DNA of 64,000 nt from Deltaproteobacteria bacterium HGW-Deltaproteobacteria-13. Lineage in GTDB: Bacteria; Desulfobacterota; Syntrophia; Syntrophales; Smithellaceae. Under the pieces are notes generated by a model that worked only from the letters and a program-made list of their open reading frames with translations, ran no database searches and was not told the origin of the DNA. The position numbers and the translations under genes were made by a program. Where the stretch lies: NCBI GenBank assembly GCA_002840555.1, contig PHBJ01000006.1, positions 46,082 to 110,081 of the forward strand. The letters run 5' to 3'. Below, piece after piece: positions 1,526-46,966 of the stretch (its first letter is position 1; the number at the start of each line of letters is the position of its first letter).

Positions 1526-2422
1526 TCACTTGCGGCCGATTTTCGCATAGGCTGTCTCAATATTGTTAAGATGTTCTTTCAGAATCTTCAAAAAAGGCCG
1601 ATCTTTTCTTATTGTTAGTAAACCATCTATGGTTTCGATACATTCAGTTTTCTCTAAATATTTGAATTGCGATAATTCCCAGACAATACCGAATAGGTCG
1701 GCGAGGTGAAGAATGATTTGAGCGTATTCATAGAACTCAAATTGTGTGTGCAGGATAACATTTTTGCTATTATCCACACGTAGAAAATCCGGGTGGCTTT
1801 GGTAGTCCAGATGGGTTTTCTTGCTCAAGAAACCATATAATTTCCCACCCAAGGGTATTACTTTTTTTAGCTTGGAGACAACCTTTGTAGTTATGATAGC
1901 TTTAATATCATCTATGCAGTCAAGAGTGTATGCGGCATGCGCCCAAGCAATCTGTTCTAATATAAGTCTTGATACAGCATGTCCTTCATAACGATGACCT
2001 AGTTCATATAGAAGATGGGCAGAAAAAAAACTGTAGGGTAATCTTTCGAGAACTAATGAAGCTCCAAAGACACCTTTGGATGGCCGGGGTTTATCATTTG
2101 CGGACAGCCTTGTTATTAATTCGTCTATGTATTTTTTGGCTGATTTATATGCAAGAATATACTGAGCCTCTACGGCATCCTCACCAACGTCTTCGACTAG
2201 AGAAATTGTTTTACAATACTGTTTTTTTGCGTAATCAATGCTCGAAAGCCTCATGGTAGAGGCAACAATGGCAGCTTGGATGTTATCTCGCAAACTATAC
2301 TCGAAGCGATATCTAGGAATAATGGCTATTTCTAGTCCAGTACCAACAACTTCAAAGTCTTCTAATAGTTGTCGGATTCTTTTGCCTGCGTGTACTGTGA
2401 ACAATTGATCGGAATCGGTCAT
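1526..2422 (-). CDS. Uncharacterised 298-residue protein
   Basis: I do not recognise this protein with confidence. It is mostly helical and soluble, with no signal peptide or membrane span. A central conserved-looking stretch (about residues 140-170: LYELGHRYEGHAVSRLILEQ followed by IAWAHAAY) resembles the helical core of DUF5677/HEPN-like proteins, but this is only an impression. A charged C-terminal helix ends the chain. No good ribosome-binding site precedes the ATG. Base composition is more AT-rich than the metabolic genes around it, and it sits next to a toxin-antitoxin pair, so it may be accessory DNA. Confidence 0.6.
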   Translation of the reverse strand: MTDSDQLFTVHAGKRIRQLLEDFEVVGTGLEIAIIPRYRFEYSLRDNIQAAIVASTMRLSSIDYAKKQYCKTISLVEDVGEDAVEAQYILAYKSAKKYIDELITRLSANDKPRPSKGVFGASLVLERLPYSFFSAHLLYELGHRYEGHAVSRLILEQIAWAHAAYTLDCIDDIKAIITTKVVSKLKKVIPLGGKLYGFLSKKTHLDYQSHPDFLRVDNSKNVILHTQFEFYEYAQIILHLADLFGIVWELSQFKYLEKTECIETIDGLLTIRKDRPFLKILKEHLNNIETAYAKIGRK

Positions 2423-2484
2423 TATTTATTTTCTATTAATCTAGCAGATATTGCGGTGGCATTAGTCCCACGTCACTTCGCTCG

Positions 2485-2555
2485 TTATACCACGGCGCTA
2501 CGCGCCTGGTATAATTCGTCCTACAAGTTTCAGCGCGCTTTGCTTCTGAAACTTG
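2485..2555. repeat. Two adjacent strong hairpins downstream of the ACT gene
   Basis: The first hairpin pairs TTATACCA plus GGCGC (2485-2498) with GCGCC plus TGGTATAA (2502-2514). The second pairs CAAGTTTCAG (2524-2533) with CTGAAACTTG (2546-2555). They lie within 8-80 nt of the ACT gene stop and could terminate that minus-strand transcript, although no clear U-tract follows. They could equally be remnants of a palindromic intergenic repeat. Confidence 0.5.
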
Positions 2556-2562
2556 GGTCTCA

Positions 2563-2994
2563 CTAAAAGTCATAGAGCTGTGCTCCCGGAATAACCGTGA
2601 ACTTATTCTTCAGCAGAACGTCGATGGCTTTTTCAGGGTTGTCGAAGCGGAAGATGATAACGGCGTTCTGGCCGCTTTTTTCCACGAAGGCGTAAAGATA
2701 TTCCACGTTGATGCCTTCCTTGGAAACGACTTCCATAATACTGTGCAGTCCGCCCGGTGTATCGGGAACTTCCACGGCAACAACGGGGGTTTTGCTGACA
2801 CGAAAGCCGTTATCCTTAAGAACTTTGTTGGCTTTTTCGACATCGTTGACAATCAAACGCAGGATGCCGAAATCCGCTGTTTCCGCCAGCGACAACGTTC
2901 GAATATTGATGTTGTTCTCTTTCAGGGCGCGCGTCGCGTGCTCGAGCGATCCCGGTTTATTTTCCAAAAAAACAGATATTTGTTCTACTTTCAT
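2563..2994 (-). CDS. Tandem ACT-domain protein
   Basis: A 143-residue protein made of two ACT domains (about 3-65 and 70-138), recognised from [20 protein letters not shown] and [21 protein letters not shown]. Such stand-alone ACT pairs bind small molecules, usually amino acids. They are often encoded directly after phenylacetate-CoA-ligase-type genes in anaerobes. Here the start is 21 nt after the ligase stop with a GGGGG ribosome-binding site, so the two form one operon. A role as ligand-sensing partner of the ligase is inferred from context only. Confidence 0.85.
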
Positions 2995-3015
2995 TGTAAC
3001 CCCCTTATGTATTTA

Positions 3016-4314
3016 TCAATAGCGGCGTTTATCAATAATTTTTGCTCCTGCTTTTTGCAGTGTGTTGGGCTCGACGAGTTTTACACGCGCGGTAATGCCC
3101 AGATAATCCGTCATGTCCTTGACAATTCTCTTTTCCATCTTCTGCAGTTCCTTGACACTGCCGGAATCGCTGAATATATTATCGCTGACTTCGACCTGTA
3201 AATCGAGAGAATCCAGCGCGCCCACTTTATCAATGATAATTTGATAATTGGGTTTCAATCCTTCAATGCCAACTAAAATAGCTTCTATCTGCGATGGGAA
3301 AATATTGATGCCGCGGATAATCAGCATATCGTCGCTTCGTTTCAATACCCTTTCCATTTTGACGTGACTGCGTCCGCAGCGGCACGGTTCGGTAATCAGG
3401 CGTGATATATCGCCGGAACGATAACGGATGAGCGGGCCCGCTTCCTTGGTGAGCGTTGTAAAAACCAGTTCGCCCTCTTCGCCCTCAGGCAGCACTTCGC
3501 CTGTTGCGGGATTGATTGTTTCGACGATAAAATGGTCTTCAAAAACATGCATTCCATTGCGGCCTTCCAGACATTCCATCGCCATGCCGGGGCCGATCAC
3601 TTCCGATAAGCCGAAGAGGTCCAGCGCGGTGATGCCGAAAGTATTTTCAATTTCATCGCGTGTCGCACTGTTCCATGGTTCCGCTCCGAAAATACCTACA
3701 CGCAGTTTCAAGGCTTTCATGTCCACACCCAGCGTCTTTCCAATTTCTGCCAGATGCAAAGCGTAGGAAGGAGTGGAACAAATGACCGTCGGCCCGAAAT
3801 CCTGTAAAATCATGATTTGCCTTTTGGCGTTTCCTCCGGACATGGGAATAACACTGGCGCCTATTTTTTCCGCGCCGTAATGCAGTCCCAAACCGCCGGT
3901 GAACAATCCGTAGCCGAACGCGTTATGAATTATATCGTTTTTTGTGATACCCGCGGCGACGAGGCAGCGCGCGATAAGATCCGACCAGGTTTCAATATCG
4001 CGCCTGGTGTAACCGAAGACGGCAGACTTTCCGCTGGTGCCGGAAGAAGTGTGCAAACGCACGATACTGCTCATGGGTACGGAAAATAAACCGAAGGGAT
4101 AATTATCGCGTAAATCCTTTCTGGTAATGAAGGGAAGCTTTTTCATGTCGGCGAGGGATTTGATATCGTCGGGTTTGACTTTAGCGGCATCAAAAGATTT
4201 TTTATAAAATCCCACCGTGTGGTAGACACGTTCCAAGACCTGCTGCAATCTTTTGACTTGCAGGGCTTTGATCACTTCGCGGGGCATGGTTTCAAATTCT
4301 TCGTTGTAGATCAT
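3016..4314 (-). CDS. paaK: Phenylacetate-CoA ligase family enzyme (AMP-forming)
   Basis: A 432-residue adenylate-forming ligase of the PaaK family, which joins an aryl or aryl-acetic acid to CoA using ATP with release of AMP. The P-loop-like SSGTSGK is at residues 90-96. The adenylation core includes [15 protein letters not shown], and the C-terminal hinge includes YRSGDISRL and [15 protein letters not shown]. Length is normal for the family, and the start has a GGAGG site 7 nt upstream. In this gene neighbourhood (ACT partner, no paa ring-hydroxylation genes) the substrate could be phenylacetate, indoleacetate or another arylacid. The paaK symbol denotes the family, not a proven substrate. 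Confidence 0.88.
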
Positions 4315-4409
4315 GCAGTTGCCTCCTCATTAAATAACGGATACCGGACTGGTGAGAAGTCTAACAAAACTTTTGATCTCTGGCAAGAAGCTTTCAATGA
4401 AAAAGGATA

Positions 4410-4946
4410 TTATGCGGGCTTTTGCTGTAAAAAATTATCAGCCAGCATGATTCCCAAAACGGTTTTCGCGTCGATGACTTGGCCATTTTTAATTAATTCC
4501 TGCGCGCTCGCAAAACTGACAGGTATTGTTTCTATGAATTCATCTTCGTCGGGAGTCAGCGGCGCATGAGTCAAATTCCGGGCAAGGAAAAAATACATAT
4601 ATTCATTGCAATATCCCGGCAGCAGATAGCCTTCGAAGAGTTTAATAATATCTCCTGCTTGAAAGCCGGTTTCTTCGGCCAGTTCGCGCTGGGCGCAAAG
4701 TGCCGGCGATTCTTCCGTGCCATCCAACGAGCCGGCAGGGATTTCCAGAAGATCTTTTTTAACGGCATTGCGGTACTGTTTGATTAACAGCAATTCCTTT
4801 TTGCTGTTGATGGCGACAATCGCTACAGTGGGGTTGTGATTAATCCAGCTTTGCCTGGCTGTTTTGCCGTTGGGCAGATCGAATTCTTCTTCCCAGACAT
4901 CAAAAATTTTACATTGGTACATCAGGGAGGATTTATTTTTCTTCAT
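4410..4946 (-). CDS. NUDIX hydrolase, ADP-ribose pyrophosphatase-like
   Basis: A 178-residue NUDIX protein starting MKKNKSSLMYQCKIFDVW. This start lies 16 nt after the thioredoxin stop; a longer start at 5000 would overlap that gene and lacks support. The NUDIX box is AGSLDGTEESPALCAQREL followed by AEETGF. It carries one extra residue between the first Glu and REL relative to the usual GX5EX7REUXEEXGU pattern. The upstream IKQYRNAVKKDLLEIPAG matches ADP-ribose/nucleoside-diphosphate-sugar pyrophosphatases. Likely a housekeeping cleaner of ADP-ribose or sugar nucleotides. Confidence 0.85.
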   Translation of the reverse strand: MKKNKSSLMYQCKIFDVWEEEFDLPNGKTARQSWINHNPTVAIVAINSKKELLLIKQYRNAVKKDLLEIPAGSLDGTEESPALCAQRELAEETGFQAGDIIKLFEGYLLPGYCNEYMYFFLARNLTHAPLTPDEDEFIETIPVSFASAQELIKNGQVIDAKTVLGIMLADNFLQQKPA

Positions 4947-4962
4947 GAGCGCCTTGCTTAAA

Positions 4963-5520
4963 TCAGTTTGTCTTGATGATAGACAGCAGATGTTGTTCAA
5001 TTTGTTCTTTGGGCAGAGCTCCGGTTACTTTCTGCACCATTTTGCCATCCTTAAAGAAAAGCATGGTTGGAATGCTGCGAATTCCGTACTGTGAAGCGAT
5101 AAGCGGATTTTCGTCAACATTAAGCTTAACGACTTTTACCGCGCTGGCATAATCGGAGGCCAACTCATCAATAATAGGCGATAGTGTCCGGCACGGACCG
5201 CACCATGGCGCCCAGCAATCTACTAAAACGGATGACTCGGAGGTCAGCACTTCGCGGGAAAAAGTCTGGTCCGTTACATCGCAAGGCATTACTTTTTGCT
5301 GCGGAATAATCAATGGTTCGTGACATTTGCCGCATAAAGGTTTTTGATTCAAACGATCTTCGGACATTCTGTTTTTTGTGCCGCATTTAAGACAACGAAT
5401 AATTAATTCGTCAAGCGAAGCGCCGCACTTCCCGCAGATAGACCGGCCCTGTAATTTTTTGTGAGGTATTCTGTTTTTTGTTCCGCAATTGAGACAGCGG
5501 ATTATTACGTTATCTGGCAT
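4963..5520 (-). CDS. Thioredoxin 2-like protein with duplicated zinc ribbon
   Basis: A 185-residue cytoplasmic thioredoxin. The C-terminal 110 residues are a canonical thioredoxin fold with the redox site WCGPC at 106-110 and the cis-Pro segment YGIRSIPTMLFF. The N-terminus carries two tandem CxxC...CxxC zinc ribbons: C9/C12/C29/C32, then C43/C46/C63/C66. They share the repeat I-I-R-C-L-x-C-G-T-K-N-R. Thioredoxin 2 (TrxC) normally has one ribbon, so this is an internal duplication. It is followed 16 nt later by the NUDIX gene. Confidence 0.9.
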   Translation of the reverse strand: MPDNVIIRCLNCGTKNRIPHKKLQGRSICGKCGASLDELIIRCLKCGTKNRMSEDRLNQKPLCGKCHEPLIIPQQKVMPCDVTDQTFSREVLTSESSVLVDCWAPWCGPCRTLSPIIDELASDYASAVKVVKLNVDENPLIASQYGIRSIPTMLFFKDGKMVQKVTGALPKEQIEQHLLSIIKTN

Positions 5521-5536
5521 ATCAATTAACCTTTAT

Positions 5537-5649
5537 GGGACTGTTGACCGGGAGCGCATGCCCTGTGGGCGGCGCAATAAAATAATAATTACATTCCTTA
5601 CCGGTAAAATCTGAAAGATTTTACAAAACGATCATTTTTGAACAGTCCC
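5537..5649. repeat. 113-bp inverted-repeat-bounded intergenic element
   Basis: The ends are GGGACTGTT (5537-5545) and its exact complement AACAGTCCC (5641-5649). An internal hairpin GTAAAATCT/AGATTTTAC lies at 5604-5624. No reading frame is present. The end sequence resembles the GGGCTGTT ends of the elements at 14390 and 49949. Confidence 0.55.
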
Positions 5650-5689
5650 TTTATTTGTTATTATCTCTTTTTTGCCTCAAAAAGGCAAA

Positions 5690-6172
5690 TCATATGGCAA
5701 CGCTAACCGCAACCGGTTTAAGTATTCGCACAATTTCAGAGGCAGGTATCTGCGCCAGCAACCCCCGACTGCCCGCATTTATAAAAATTTCCGGCAAATC
5801 AGCAATGGTCTTTTCCATGTAAACAGGCATTGCTTTTCTTGTGCCGAAAGGCGAAGTGCCGCCGACTCGATAGCCCGTGTGTTTTTCCGCCACTGCCGGT
5901 TTGCAGGGAAAAACGGATTTTGCGCCTATGGCGCGGGCCAGTGATTTTGTGGAAACCTCCTTATCGCCATGCATCAGAATTATCAACGGCTTGCCGGTTT
6001 CATCCTCCATGATCAGGGTTTTGATGATACGGTGTTCATCAACGCCCAGTTTAATCGACGATGTTTTCGTGCCGCCCCTTTCTTCGTATGGGTAAGTATG
6101 CAGAGTAAAATCCGCATTTTGCTCTTTTAATACCAAAATAGCAGGCGTTGTCGGAAAGTTTTCTTTTTTCAT
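5690..6172 (-). CDS. ybaK: YbaK/EbsC-family Cys-tRNA(Pro) deacylase
   Basis: A 160-residue single-domain aminoacyl-tRNA editing protein. Family members hydrolyse Cys-tRNA(Pro) formed by prolyl-tRNA synthetase. Visible signatures are KTLIMEDETGKPLIILMHGD, the catalytic-type Lys segment KEVSTKSLARAIGAK, and GYRVGGTSPFGTRKAMPVYM. Length matches E. coli YbaK (159). No operon partner is evident; an inverted-repeat element lies downstream and the next gene is divergent. Confidence 0.92.
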   Translation of the reverse strand: MKKENFPTTPAILVLKEQNADFTLHTYPYEERGGTKTSSIKLGVDEHRIIKTLIMEDETGKPLIILMHGDKEVSTKSLARAIGAKSVFPCKPAVAEKHTGYRVGGTSPFGTRKAMPVYMEKTIADLPEIFINAGSRGLLAQIPASEIVRILKPVAVSVAI

Positions 6173-6388
6173 TGCTCATTATAATAACCATTAAAAATAA
6201 AAAAGCAATATCTCCAACATTGCCCGCCCTTTGTATTAATTTGTATGTTTCTTTATTGATAAATTTATATAAACATTCCGTGTTCAATAGACAAAAAATG
6301 GCTGAATTATCGCAGAACATGTGGTAGAAGCAAATTCATCTATAGCTTTGTTTTTCCAGCATTTTAATTAATTAAGGAGTGTTAATCA

Positions 6389-7492
6389 ATGAAAAGAATA
6401 ATAATCATATTTTTGAATTTGTTTGCATTACTCATCCTCGCCTGTGCTCCTGTCTATACCATTGACCATTCCAAACCCGTTAAGCCGGTCAGTTTGCCTG
6501 CCGATGATGCCGCTCATTACTGGGCGCAGCAGGAATGGTGGTATTATACAGGTCACCTGAAAGCTGAGGATGGAAGAGACTTCGGCTATGAAGTGACCTT
6601 TTTCAAAAGGATCACCAACGAAGATAATGTTCCTGAAATTTTTATTCCCATTCCCGCTTACTGGATCAAAGATGTCGGAATGCTGGGGCACTTTGCCGTA
6701 ACTGATCTGCAAAACAAGCGATTCCGCGCCGCCGAGAAAAACAATTTTATTTTTACAAAATCAAAAGCGGACGAAAAACAATATGATGTCATGATCGGGT
6801 CCTGGTCTGCCCGGGAAAAGGACGGCAAGCACGTTCTTTGCGCTGAAATGGAAGGCTATAAAATAGAGTTGGAATTGGAAAAGCTGAAACCGGCGGCTTG
6901 TCACGGACAAAGCGGCATCGTCGATAAAGGGGGAAATCATTCCAATTACTACTATTCATATACAAATTTAAAAACATCAGGGACGCTGACGGTCGATGGC
7001 CAACCGGTGAAGGTTGAAGGAACATCATGGATGGATCATGAATACGGGACGATGAAACTTAATCCGCCGCAATCGGGGTGGGACTGGTTCAGTGTGCAGT
7101 TGAATAATAATTGCGAATTGATGATCTATTTAATTAGAAATGATAAGGATTCCATGATTGATGCCGGAGGCGCCACCTTTGTGCTGCCGGACGGCAAAAC
7201 AATCTGGATAACCAAAGAGGATATTGATATTAAGGCGTTGGATTACTGGTACAGCAAACAAACAGATTCCAATTATCCCGCTTTGTGGGACATAACCGTT
7301 AAATCATTGAATTTAAAGCTTAACGTTACCCCGGTTTTTGCAGAACAGGAGCTGCATTTAAAGCCCCTGCCTTATTGGGAAGGAGGTGTGACTGTTAACG
7401 GCACCTGCAATGATGTACCCGTGACAGGGAAAGGTTATGTGGAACTGGTTGGATATAGTAAGAAATTCAATTTAGTTTACATGCAAAAATAA
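6389..7492 (+). CDS. CrtC/AttH-like lipocalin-fold lipoprotein
   Basis: A 367-residue exported protein with a lipoprotein-type signal: charged start, hydrophobic core and Cys19 in ILAC. The mature part begins with AAHYWAQQEWWYYTGHL and contains VEGTSWMDHEYG and GWDWFSVQLNN. These are hallmarks of the carotenoid 1,2-hydratase (CrtC)/AttH family, which has two lipocalin-like domains. No carotenoid genes are nearby, so I call only the family; it may be a lipid- or terpenoid-acting hydrolase of the envelope. The ATG follows an AAGGAG site by 9 nt. Confidence 0.82.
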   Translation: MKRIIIIFLNLFALLILACAPVYTIDHSKPVKPVSLPADDAAHYWAQQEWWYYTGHLKAEDGRDFGYEVTFFKRITNEDNVPEIFIPIPAYWIKDVGMLGHFAVTDLQNKRFRAAEKNNFIFTKSKADEKQYDVMIGSWSAREKDGKHVLCAEMEGYKIELELEKLKPAACHGQSGIVDKGGNHSNYYYSYTNLKTSGTLTVDGQPVKVEGTSWMDHEYGTMKLNPPQSGWDWFSVQLNNNCELMIYLIRNDKDSMIDAGGATFVLPDGKTIWITKEDIDIKALDYWYSKQTDSNYPALWDITVKSLNLKLNVTPVFAEQELHLKPLPYWEGGVTVNGTCNDVPVTGKGYVELVGYSKKFNLVYMQK

Positions 7493-42515: not shown

Positions 42516-42572
42516 ACCATACCAATTAAAACTCTTCAGAAATAAAAAGAACATGCACAGTTATTCTCAACA

Positions 42573-42627
42573 TGTATACAACTTGTTGACAACTTTTAAA
42601 ATTAGTTTACAATAAAGTTGTCAACAA
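42573..42627 (+). promoter_or_regulatory. Promoter and inverted-repeat operator of the HTH-ATPase regulator
   Basis: Perfect 13-bp arms TTGTTGACAACTT (42583-42595) and AAGTTGTCAACAA (42615-42627) are separated by 19 nt. They enclose a sigma-70 promoter: TTGACA (42586-42591), 16 nt, TACAAT (42608-42613). A TGTATACA palindrome precedes it at 42573-42580. An equivalent repeat lies just downstream of the gene (43664-43718). Confidence 0.8.
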
Positions 42628-42645
42628 TAATTATGGAGAAGATAT

Positions 42646-43680
42646 ATGGAATTGAGAACTCTCATACTCAATACAATTAATAAACAAGGGCAAATTACTA
42701 CCGCTGACATTGTAGGCCAAACAGGGCTTTCGCGGGCGTATGCGCAGAGGTTTCTGAAAAACCTTGCGGATGAAGGTGCCATTGTTTTGATGGGTAAAGC
42801 AAACCAGGCCCACTATATTATTTCTTCGAAAAAAGGCACAAGCATTAAGAAACCTTTAAGGGTTCACAAGATCATGCTCAACAAGGATTTGGCCGAGGAT
42901 AAAGTGTTGCGTCAAATCAAAGAAGAAAGCGCAATCTTCAAAGGTGTTGCCACTAATATTTCTTCCATTGTCGATTATGCTTTTACCGAAATGCTCAACA
43001 ACGCGATTGAACATTCTGCTTCGGAAAAGATAGACTTAATCATTATGAAAACCGCGACAGATATCCGGTTTACGGTGGCCGATCAGGGTGTCGGCATATT
43101 TAACAATATTATGAAAATAAAGCGTCTGCACACAACGATTGAAGCCATTCAGGATCTGCTCAAAGGAAAAGAAACCACTGCGCCTGATGCACACAGCGGT
43201 GAGGGTATATTTTTTACGTCAAAGGTTGCTGATCGTTTGATCATCAAGAGTTTTGAGAAGAAGCTCATTTTCGACAATATTGGGCAGGACATTTATATAA
43301 AAGATATCCAATCCGTGAAAGGAACAAAGATTGATTTTGTCCTGGGTCTAAAATCGAAAAAGAAACTGGCTGATCTTTTTAATAAGTACACGGATGATTC
43401 CTTCCAATTCAGCAAGACCGCAGTGAAAGTCAAGCTGTATCATCAGAATGTGGATTATGTGTCAAGATCGCAGGCACGGAGAATTCTGGCTGGTCTGGAA
43501 AAATTCAAGACGATTGAGCTCGATTTTAACGACATTAAGACTATCGGGCAAGCCTTTGCCGACGAAGTATTCCGAATTTGGCAGTCTGCGCACAAAGATG
43601 TTAAGTTTGTCGTCAAAAATGCCAATGAAAACGTGATGATTATGATTAAGCGTGCGCAATCATTGTATACAACTTGTTGA
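42646..43680 (+). CDS. Winged HTH - HATPase - STAS-like (DUF4325) regulator
   Basis: A 344-residue three-domain protein. Residues 1-60 form a winged helix (GQITTADIVGQTGLSRAYAQ). Residues about 105-215 form a GHKL ATPase domain with N-box EMLNNAIEHS (115-124), G1 DQGVG (146-150) and G2 HSGEGIFFTS (183-192). The C-terminus (about 275-344) is a DUF4325/STAS-like domain (IELDFNDIKTIGQAFADEVF). There is no phospho-acceptor His, so it is probably an ATP-dependent DNA-binding switch. GGAGAAG precedes the ATG. Its last codons and TGA stop lie inside the downstream inverted repeat, identical in arms and spacing to that in its promoter. Context-free otherwise. Confidence 0.85.
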   Translation: MELRTLILNTINKQGQITTADIVGQTGLSRAYAQRFLKNLADEGAIVLMGKANQAHYIISSKKGTSIKKPLRVHKIMLNKDLAEDKVLRQIKEESAIFKGVATNISSIVDYAFTEMLNNAIEHSASEKIDLIIMKTATDIRFTVADQGVGIFNNIMKIKRLHTTIEAIQDLLKGKETTAPDAHSGEGIFFTSKVADRLIIKSFEKKLIFDNIGQDIYIKDIQSVKGTKIDFVLGLKSKKKLADLFNKYTDDSFQFSKTAVKVKLYHQNVDYVSRSQARRILAGLEKFKTIELDFNDIKTIGQAFADEVFRIWQSAHKDVKFVVKNANENVMIMIKRAQSLYTTC

Positions 43681-43718
43681 CAACTTCTAAAATCAATATT
43701 GAGAAAAGTTGTCAACAA
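43664..43718. repeat. Second copy of the regulator-flanking inverted repeat
   Basis: TGTATACA (43664-43671), TTGTTGACAACTT (43674-43686), 19-nt spacer and AAGTTGTCAACAA (43706-43718) repeat the arrangement at 42573-42627 exactly in arms and spacing. The -10 box in the spacer is degraded here. The stop codon (43678-43680) lies in the left arm. Confidence 0.85.
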
Positions 43719-43797
43719 AAGAGAGTGCTCATTTTAGAGCCTAATTGAGTTTTTTCGTTTGGGCGACTTATTCTTTTTCTGGAAGATATGCGAAAGG

Positions 43798-45676: not shown

Positions 45677-46654
45677 ATGCAGGGTTATCAAAATATGAAC
45701 ACTGAGAAAACAATATTTTCATTCTGGGAACCCAAGGGGAACATGACCCCATATCTGGAGCTTTGCAGAAAAACATGGGAAAGAAACCTTCCTGATTATG
45801 AAATTATTTTTCTGGATTATTCGAATCTCGGCCTCTATCTGCCTGAAGGGGCCTATGATATGAATATCCTCAGGAAACTCACTCTCATGATGCAGAAAGA
45901 TGCCGTCATGGTTGCCGTATTAAAGGAACATGGCGGAATCTTCATGGATGCCGATACGCTGGTGACGGGAGACCTGGCGCCGCTTTTGCGCATGTTGAGC
46001 CATACTGAAGTGGTTATGTTCAGTGCTCATATGGCCTTTGTGGCAGCGCAACCCGGCTCTTATCTCCTTACTCTATGGTATAAAAAGATTCAGCAAAAGT
46101 TAAATTTCCTGAAGGAGGAAAAGGACGGCGCGCCGCAATTCCAGCAATGGGATTTTATAGGAAACAGCTCACTGGCCGATGTAATGGATGAGATGATAGG
46201 GACCCTGGGCTTCTTTCACAGAATTCCCAAAAATATTTCAGATAAATTTGTTTCTGCTTATATGAAAATCACTCATAATGAAAACTTGCTGACACCCCGG
46301 TTAAAAGAGTTGATTAATCGCCTGGGAAGTTCTCTGGCGCGAAGGAAGAGAGAATTTTATTTTCGTCACGTTTTTAAACATCATCTTACCATGCTGGATA
46401 GGTTGGAATACGGGTTTATTCCCGAAGCTCTTTACTTTAAATCGAAAAGGATGATGCCTGAAGAAAAGTATCGGAAGTTCTGGTTTGACAAGAACATTGA
46501 AATCAAGGACTCCCTCAGGTCGAATCAGTCGTTGATTGGGCTACACCATTCCTGGACTCCAGAGTGGTACAAGGAATTGTCAGAGAAAGAAGTGCTGGAA
46601 AATGATTTTCTTCTTTCCAGAACATTGAAACATATTTTAGGACTTCGCTTGTAG
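45677..46654 (+). CDS. DXD-motif glycosyltransferase (GT32-like)
   Basis: A 325-residue protein. FSFWEPKGNMTPYLELCRKT, WERNLPDYEIIFLDYSN, and the metal/sugar-nucleotide motif GGIFMDADTLVTGD place it among capsular/mannosyl glycosyltransferases with a sugar-binding DXD region. The C-terminal half binds acceptor and includes GLHHSWTPEWYKEL. ATG 45677 or 45695 is possible; an in-frame ATG at 45575 would overlap the radical SAM gene. Co-transcribed with it and likely acts on the same glycan or peptide. Confidence 0.82.
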   Translation: MQGYQNMNTEKTIFSFWEPKGNMTPYLELCRKTWERNLPDYEIIFLDYSNLGLYLPEGAYDMNILRKLTLMMQKDAVMVAVLKEHGGIFMDADTLVTGDLAPLLRMLSHTEVVMFSAHMAFVAAQPGSYLLTLWYKKIQQKLNFLKEEKDGAPQFQQWDFIGNSSLADVMDEMIGTLGFFHRIPKNISDKFVSAYMKITHNENLLTPRLKELINRLGSSLARRKREFYFRHVFKHHLTMLDRLEYGFIPEALYFKSKRMMPEEKYRKFWFDKNIEIKDSLRSNQSLIGLHHSWTPEWYKELSEKEVLENDFLLSRTLKHILGLRL

Positions 46655-46966
46655 CTGAGCTTTTGCCTGGGCGAGTTTTTCTTTGTCGAGATAATATTTC
46701 CCATTGCTCGTTTTGATGACCAGACCATCGGAGATTAGAAGATTTAATGCTTTGGGGCGGATATTTTTGGTACCGACGCGGAAGAAATTTTTCCGTTCAT
46801 CCTGAATTGCAACAGCCCTTGCTTCTTTAAAGGCTCTGGACTCTTCCATTTCCGCGATAATTTTTAAGCACGTCTTCTGTACGGCCAATCCACCCACGTA
46901 AAGCATAATGACAATAATGGCAATAAAGACGACAACCAGCAGAATGATTTGTAAAGATAACGTCAT
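46637..46966 (-). CDS. Small single-span membrane protein
   Basis: A 109-residue protein with one N-terminal span (about 4-28) and a charged cytoplasmic domain ending in a possible winged-helix-like region (IRPKALNLLISDGLVIKTSN-GKYYLDKEKL). It is antisense at its 3' end (18 bp) to the glycosyltransferase stop. An AAGAGA site precedes the ATG. Unrecognised. Confidence 0.62.
   Translation of the reverse strand: MTLSLQIILLVVVFIAIIVIMLYVGGLAVQKTCLKIIAEMEESRAFKEARAVAIQDERKNFFRVGTKNIRPKALNLLISDGLVIKTSNGKYYLDKEKLAQAKAQLQAKS

Follow-up and report, generated by a model that had tools for sequence, protein, structure and literature searches.

CapK and CapS, regulators of bacterial immune operons, consist of two proteins, an HTH-STAS-GHKL kinase and its STAS-wHTH substrate (PMC13373217). 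The CapS sites are TTAA palindromes located between capK and capS and after capS, and CapS and VapS carry an invariant Ser (or Ser/Thr) in the STAS domain that was phosphorylated or required in tests (PMC13373217). This is the nearest characterised system that we met for a gene encoding the same kinds of domain in the DNA analysed here, a stretch of 64,000 nucleotides referred to as the window. Repressors of the lac O2 type use an auxiliary operator downstream of the promoter operator, and Xer sites have an 11 + 6 + 11 layout.

The gene in the window is bracketed by two copies of a repeat, R. Searches of the literature on a second operator with looping and on GHKL-STAS-HTH proteins, with most subscription journals outside the search, found no description of such an R-gene-R arrangement in the sources covered. 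The account that we prefer, and to which we give about an even chance of being right, is that the gene product binds DNA and regulates its own gene, at whose end selection has maintained a second operator, that the direct repeats make the gene excisable, and that the unit spreads horizontally.

The gene, its predicted product and the two copies of R

The gene (42646 to 43680, forward strand) encodes 344 amino acids, compared to 339 in 11 of its 12 relatives and 340 in G054. The HTH, HATPase and DUF4325 domains named in the original prediction were all found above their Pfam cut-offs. They correspond to a winged helix-turn-helix in residues 1-63 (42646 to 42834, forward; PF13412, HTH_24, 25.0 against a cut-off of 21.9), a GHKL ATPase/kinase domain in residues 69-238 (42850 to 43359, forward; PF13581, HATPase_c_2, 34.5 against 27.4) and a STAS-like DUF4325 in residues 276-330 (43471 to 43635, forward; PF14213, 54.4 bits against 23). 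An AlphaFold model of the protein based on 18 sequences had a mean pLDDT of 82.1 and a pTM of 0.68, and predicts a Bergerat fold with the N, G1 and G2 motifs of a SpoIIAB-type GHKL domain. Fold searches were carried out with residues 1-63, which matched solved wHTH chains (VIA-align Z ~10), and residues 71-240, which matched SpoIIAB (1l0o_A; Z 14.2, rmsd 2.6, 135 residues aligned). As the C-terminal part was barely covered by these searches, the STAS likeness rests on Pfam. The ATP-site residues E115/N118/N119, D146-x-G148-x-G150 and G185-E186-G187 are invariant in 18 of 18 alignment rows. In the same alignment no Ser or Thr within DUF4325 residues 276-330 is invariant or nearly so, and S273 and S275, directly before the domain, are invariant. 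Judging by the motif, we take A303 to be the position that matches the phospho-acceptor.

Pfam found no transposase or recombinase domain in the gene, PADLOC called nothing on the window, and a search of solved structures by sequence gave no match better than E 0.005. The protein had no match in plasmid and phage collections; its top match in PHROGs was phrog_3364, of unknown function. Among viral contigs a single-protein query found no relative, and an alignment query found 17 loci at 32-58% identity. A search of titles, with most subscription journals outside it, found no paper on DUF4325 function.

R is 56 nt in full, with an upstream copy at 42572 to 42627 and a downstream copy at 43663 to 43718 in direct orientation, within one base of where the repeats had been predicted. 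Each copy contains three TTGTNNACAA boxes at offsets 0, 11 and 46. Boxes 1 and 2 are direct and 11 nt apart, box 3 lies at +46 in the inverted sense, and boxes 2 and 3 together make up the inverted repeat of the original prediction, with perfect 13-nt arms and a 19-nt spacer. The two repeats had been called identical, which is true of the arms and untrue of the spacer; the pair as a whole (42573 to 42627 and 43664 to 43718) is 85% identical across 55 nt.

The upstream copy (forward; boxes 42572 to 42581, 42583 to 42592 and 42618 to 42627) has a layout common to 13 of 13 close homologues. A consensus scan placed a candidate sigma-70-type promoter within it (42586 to 42613, forward), i.e. TTGACA at 42586 to 42591 inside box 2, a 16-nt separation and TACAAT at 42608 to 42613, with 11 of 12 consensus matches. 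Box 2 thus overlaps the predicted -35 element and box 3 comes after the -10 element. These operator-like boxes over a predicted promoter lend support from sequence to the autoregulation originally proposed.

The downstream copy (forward; boxes 43663 to 43672, 43674 to 43683 and 43709 to 43718) begins in the coding region and includes the stop, as had been stated: it holds codons 340-344 and the TGA at 43678 to 43680. Codon 340 (341 in G054) is TAG in 12 of 12 other clade genes, inside the first downstream box, and aligns with 43663 to 43665 of the window, where the codon is TTG. The window protein is therefore five residues longer (LYTTC) and its first downstream box is a perfect TTGTATACAA palindrome. 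The downstream copy has no -10 box at the place occupied in the upstream copy. The consensus scan found just two weak 9/12 promoter matches in it, one per strand, at a level of match for which the scanned region gave 11 sites compared to 3.9 in shuffles. The claim that a -10 box is kept only upstream extends to the relatives: of 12 copies checked on each side, 11 upstream and no downstream copies have TACAAT or TATAAT at this place.

Both copies of R are far beyond chance by pattern counts and by a weight matrix. The pattern TTGTNNACAACTT with at most one mismatch had nine matches in the window compared to 1.08 expected, eight of the nine being inside the two copies. The matrix, trained on these and related repeats, scored 88 and 85 at the two copies; when one strand of the window was put through 20 simple letter shuffles, the highest score was -6.4. 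In the window's own genome (3.5 Mb, 29 contigs), the protein has a single match and R has no strong copies besides these two. The 13-mer TTGTTGACAACTT has four exact sites in this genome, all within the two copies, and seven with one mismatch. As the reversed control pattern of TTGTTGACAACTT had five matches, we do not claim a wider regulon.

Conservation of R among close and distant homologues

Full-length close homologues were found in 13 of 155 genomes of the class, i.e. in 12 of the 51 family genomes and in G054 from another family. These 13 include the window gene, to whose protein the 12 relatives are 68-91% identical; the window genome and G006 share a genus code. R is present at both ends of the gene in 13 of 13. 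Mean pairwise identity of the boxes was 0.904 for the downstream and 0.903 for the upstream copies (13 each), while the central NN of the downstream boxes varied (0.489). Spacer identity was 0.570 downstream compared to 0.817 upstream, where the spacer includes the -10 element. The unit has sharp edges: outside it, identity dropped to 0.281 over 30 nt after and 0.313 before, near chance. The R-to-R distance is 1091 in 10 of 13 loci, and 1087, 1092 and 1104 in the others. A truncated relative in G024 lacks both DUF4325 and the downstream R, and its upstream R is damaged.

We considered that R might work as an RNA hairpin, either a terminator or an end-protecting stem, rather than as a protein site. 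The downstream copy can form a 13-bp stem (-17.3 kcal/mol, z -2.98). The arms also show some covariation: in the R alignment 91.1% of cells were paired, compared to a shuffled mean of 88.8 (4 of 500 shuffles reached the value), ten arm cells were double-changed (5 of 500 shuffles), and the covariation score was reached in 2 of 500 shuffles. As arm pairing is somewhat kept as well, the arms may have a structural role. However, no U-run follows the stem on either strand by eye, a search of Rfam with R gave no match, and no terminator was called at R by a scan that takes loops of 3-8 only, so that the stem of R is outside its range. Moreover, several upstream copies pair TTGTTGACAA with TTGTATACAA or TTGTCTACAA, in which case the stem is weaker and each box is kept, and the first box is conserved though it lies outside the stem. 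Having tested the hairpin reading, we rank it low and consider it very improbable.

The second repeat, whose presence around homologues the original prediction proposed to check, proved constant among the 13 close homologues and did not extend to most others. We analysed 35 other homologous loci, which include near-duplicates and cases in which two pieces come from a single genome; for the phylum, a sample of 395 genomes was scanned. In the interval from -30 to +90 of the stop, three of the 35 have a downstream array of 2-3 TTGACAA boxes (L193, L194 and L175); of the others, 30 have no box and two have one. An array of two or more downstream boxes is thus absent in 32 of 35, the truncated G024 relative included. 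The three arrays are TTGACAA-type with a spacing of 23-24 + 11, some boxes having one change; L193 and L194 have this layout upstream as well as downstream, and L175 has no upstream sequence to compare. All three belong to the sister group of the R clade, together with L195, L196, L176 and the truncated L043 (joint support 99/97). L195 and L196 are without a downstream array, and none of the 21 rows in the tree's other main clade has two or more downstream boxes. As arrays occur in both the R clade and its sister group, two groups bracket the gene with arrays that differ in sequence and spacing. This clade pattern may reflect either losses or separate origins.

Upstream boxes are more widespread, occurring in 23 of the 32 more distant loci that have upstream sequence. 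These 32 loci contain 42 boxes in 3,795 nt upstream, where shuffles predict 2.1; their gene bodies (33,621 nt) contain 28. The upstream excess is consistent with family-wide autoregulation.

Conservation also bears on whether the downstream R is a relic, left as a functionless promoter copy when a tandem duplication of promoter and gene lost one gene. Downstream copies do lack the -10 box, and in G025 the first R is preceded by a retained gene 3' end, a tandem-type junction (score 22 compared to a shuffled maximum of 12). A relic would not be expected to keep its boxes while spacer and flanks diverge, as in these 13 loci with proteins 68-100% identical to that of the window. In addition, box 2 in several downstream copies is TTGTATACAA, a palindrome unlike the box of the gene's own promoter copy, which suggests that it was retained for its role as a site rather than as a promoter, and the sister clade presents a parallel situation with another array. 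The relic explanation therefore seems to us quite improbable, and the conserved boxes together with the different array of the sister clade favor the functional downstream copy of the original prediction.

Several distant homologues have neighbors of their own. L176, the nearest non-R homologue fetched (58%, IMG/VR contig), adjoins a large serine recombinase (L176:1248-2957). L044 in G016, a distant homologue without a downstream R, precedes type I restriction-modification genes for HsdM, HsdS and HsdR (1724-7223, reverse strand). L185, L187 and L188 are prophage-like contigs in which the homologue lies directly before terminase-like genes, like a single-gene cargo; the terminase small subunit was recognised by Pfam in L187, and the terminase-like genes of L185 and L188 were labelled by eye.

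Solo copies of R, empty sites and movement of the unit

A profile search for R (E up to 1e-5, with Infernal's stricter filters, under which weak matches are lost) identified R in 22 of 51 family genomes, i.e. the 12 gene bearers and 10 genomes without an R-type gene. The latter carry a solo R (G002, G005, G014, G015, G016, G017, G020, G023, G027 and G032), and G016 has its distant homologue elsewhere in the genome. All solos except that of G020 sit in regions where relatives carry the gene: mnmG to c7 in genus g1, mnmG to c34 in g3 and the c35-c36 gap in g2. The G014 solo was placed by its flanks, its contig being without mnmG. None of eight solos checked has TACAAT or TATAAT at the -10 place, and G015 and G023 are also without it by eye. 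Solo boxes are only slightly less alike than gene-flanking ones (0.848 for 8 of 10 solos compared to 0.904). A weak third R-like site, away from the gene, was seen in G013, whose genome also carries the R-gene-R unit (L107; contig C204, ~2028-2083 reversed, E 3e-8).

The flanks of the solos were also compared. The left flanks in G014, G002 and G016 match those of upstream R copies, with scores of 25, 18 and 16 compared to shuffled maxima of 12, 11 and 12, as would be predicted if the two R copies had recombined. Those of G005, G015, G017, G020, G032 and, as a borderline case, G027 match neither class clearly (6 of 10 solos). The G023 solo has a leftover gene 3' end beside it, indicating an origin by a different deletion. 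Between G002 and G013 the two flanks of the site align at 98/132 (74%) and 110/131 (84%); in the same scheme, 59-68% is reached by pairs that lack evident homology. For the g3 pair G030/G027 the flanks align at 65% and 60%, within the level of unrelated pairs, and the shared site rests on gene order. In g2, the same gap contains no R at all in G034 and G060, indicating that the whole unit, not the gene alone, was gained or lost there. The solos are most simply explained as by-products of direct-repeat recombination, and their position at sites where relatives have the gene speaks for the excisable unit originally suggested.

The same material could be read as a minimal mobile unit whose ends are recombination sites. 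A circle of the gene (3' end-R-5' end) would be moved into or out of a solo R by the protein itself or by a recombinase that the host or a helper supplies, and the operator role would be secondary. The expected states are all present, i.e. the solo R, the flanked gene and the G025 junction of gene 3' end, R and next gene; the edges are sharp (flank identity 0.28-0.31), genomic sites differ, and the nearest non-R homologue fetched is the one beside a serine recombinase. The gene itself, however, is without a recombinase domain, and the naive g2 site (G034, G060) offers no R to insert into, which argues against insertion into R being the sole route of entry. Furthermore, the downstream R of G025 came with the gene and is not the host's, as its spacer is g1-type by eye, and ordinary deletion between 56-nt repeats explains the solos equally well. 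We therefore regard this reading as unlikely. Terminal inverted repeats of the transposon or insertion-sequence kind were not found at the unit, whose ends are direct repeats, and the 13-nt arms and 19-nt spacer do not fit the general layout of a Xer site, with 11-bp XerC/XerD arms and a 6-bp core. A variant that we hold to be distinctly improbable is a one-gene mobile element without an encoded recombinase, in which the operator array is also the recombination site and protein binding couples gene control to integration, excision or tandem amplification.

The sites of the unit differ, comprising the mnmG region, two sites within g2, the G054 site and the solo of G020. The gene after the downstream R varies and is often convergent. 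Among the neighbors of R-clade genes, judged by translations and clusters with a few assigned by Pfam, no immune operon was recognised.

The window contains a small gene, c7 (46637 to 46966, reverse strand), ~60-80 bp 3'-end fragments of which are duplicated beside differing inserts between mnmG and the gene (L035, L065, L066, L067, L114 and L115), a sign of an insertion hot spot. A shorter c7 remnant lies directly after the downstream R of the window by eye. Small toxin-antitoxin-like pairs are found beside the R unit or solo, mostly on the side toward mnmG, in several species (L030, L033, L034, L038, L040, L066 and L070). The L066 neighbor is a ParE toxin by Pfam, two L034 neighbors have no Pfam match, and the other labels were given by eye.

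Descent of the gene was compared with that of rpoB; G020 was not used, its rpoB row having been in a wrong reading frame with a very long branch, G002 had no match, G014 had a fragment only, and G062 and G071 were outside the set. The G000 gene is 90.9 and 91.2% identical to those of G006 and G012, which share 91.2% with each other, and rpoB groups G000 with G013 and others (support 100/100). The G025 gene is 80.5-84.4% identical to g1 genes compared to 70.5-72.3% to those of five other family members; for rpoB the values are 84.6-85.8% and 85.9-89.7%, respectively. For G026 and G029, members of a single genus, identity is 66.7% between the genes and 88.3% between the rpoB sequences, and rpoB groups their genus with support of 100/100. 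Six AU tests were performed on five groupings, which were named after the identities had been seen. The grouping of the G026 and G029 genes was rejected in both of its tests (p-AU 0.004 and 0.020), and vertical descent was not rejected in the other four tests (p-AU 0.103, 0.106, 0.108 and 0.149). Horizontal spread of the R-gene-R unit between relatives within its order is thus probable, and one case has statistical support. Of the mobility in the original prediction, the differing genomic sites and the one rejected grouping are in favor, while no recombinase is encoded.

Proposed mechanism and comparison with known systems

We propose that a single chain, composed of a wHTH, a SpoIIAB-like GHKL ATPase and a STAS-like DUF4325, binds the three-box array R. 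Because the upstream R covers the gene's own -35 element and start region, bound protein would shut the gene off, and the GHKL domain probably switches DNA binding by binding or hydrolysing ATP. The downstream R, overlapping the stop codon, would be a selected second operator, such that the protein occupies both ends of its gene. The two ends might then be bridged in a loop of ~1.09 kb, giving tighter autorepression, or polymerase might be blocked at the gene end. As the operators are direct repeats, R x R recombination can excise the gene exactly, a single R without a promoter staying behind, and we infer this to be the cause of the solos. The R-gene-R unit is compact (1.15 kb) and self-contained.

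The locus is a directly testable case, with exact predicted binding sites, a promoterless downstream copy as a natural control, natural gene losses in the form of the solos, and a sister clade whose array is different. Should the pair prove functional, it would represent a conserved arrangement whereby a regulator marks its own gene at either end.

By sequence, operator-like sites over the gene's own promoter and a distant second array make up the layout of an autoregulated repressor. As in lac O2-type systems, the predicted second operator is downstream of the promoter operator. The difference is that here it is a full copy of the array, located at the end of the repressor gene, overlapping the stop and conserved across species. 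The likeness to Acinetobacter dif/pdif modules, as far as the available descriptions go, is that small genes lie between short repeated sites; R differs in its 13-nt arms, 19-nt spacer and direct repeats, and a Xer layout is not evident. SpoIIAB/RsbW with SpoIIAA/RsbV resemble the window protein in the GHKL fold and in bringing GHKL and STAS-like modules together. The window protein fuses these modules to each other and to a DNA-binding domain, and its DUF4325 is without the conserved Ser/Thr.

With CapK/CapS, the window gene shares HTH, GHKL kinase-type and STAS domains, palindromic sites for autoregulation and two binding sites per locus, the sites being predicted for the window gene. Some capKS pairs adjoin restriction-modification systems, as type I genes follow the distant homologue in G016. 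The differences are that the window gene encodes one chain in the order wHTH-GHKL-DUF4325, with no separate STAS-wHTH gene directly after it; that its STAS-like domain has no conserved phospho-Ser/Thr; that no immune operon was recognised beside it; and that the copies of R bracket one gene while the CapS sites do not. By analogy, the window gene would work like CapK/CapS yet is no member of that system, and the locus provides a counterpart, in a single chain, to the two-protein kinase/STAS repressors of bacterial immunity.
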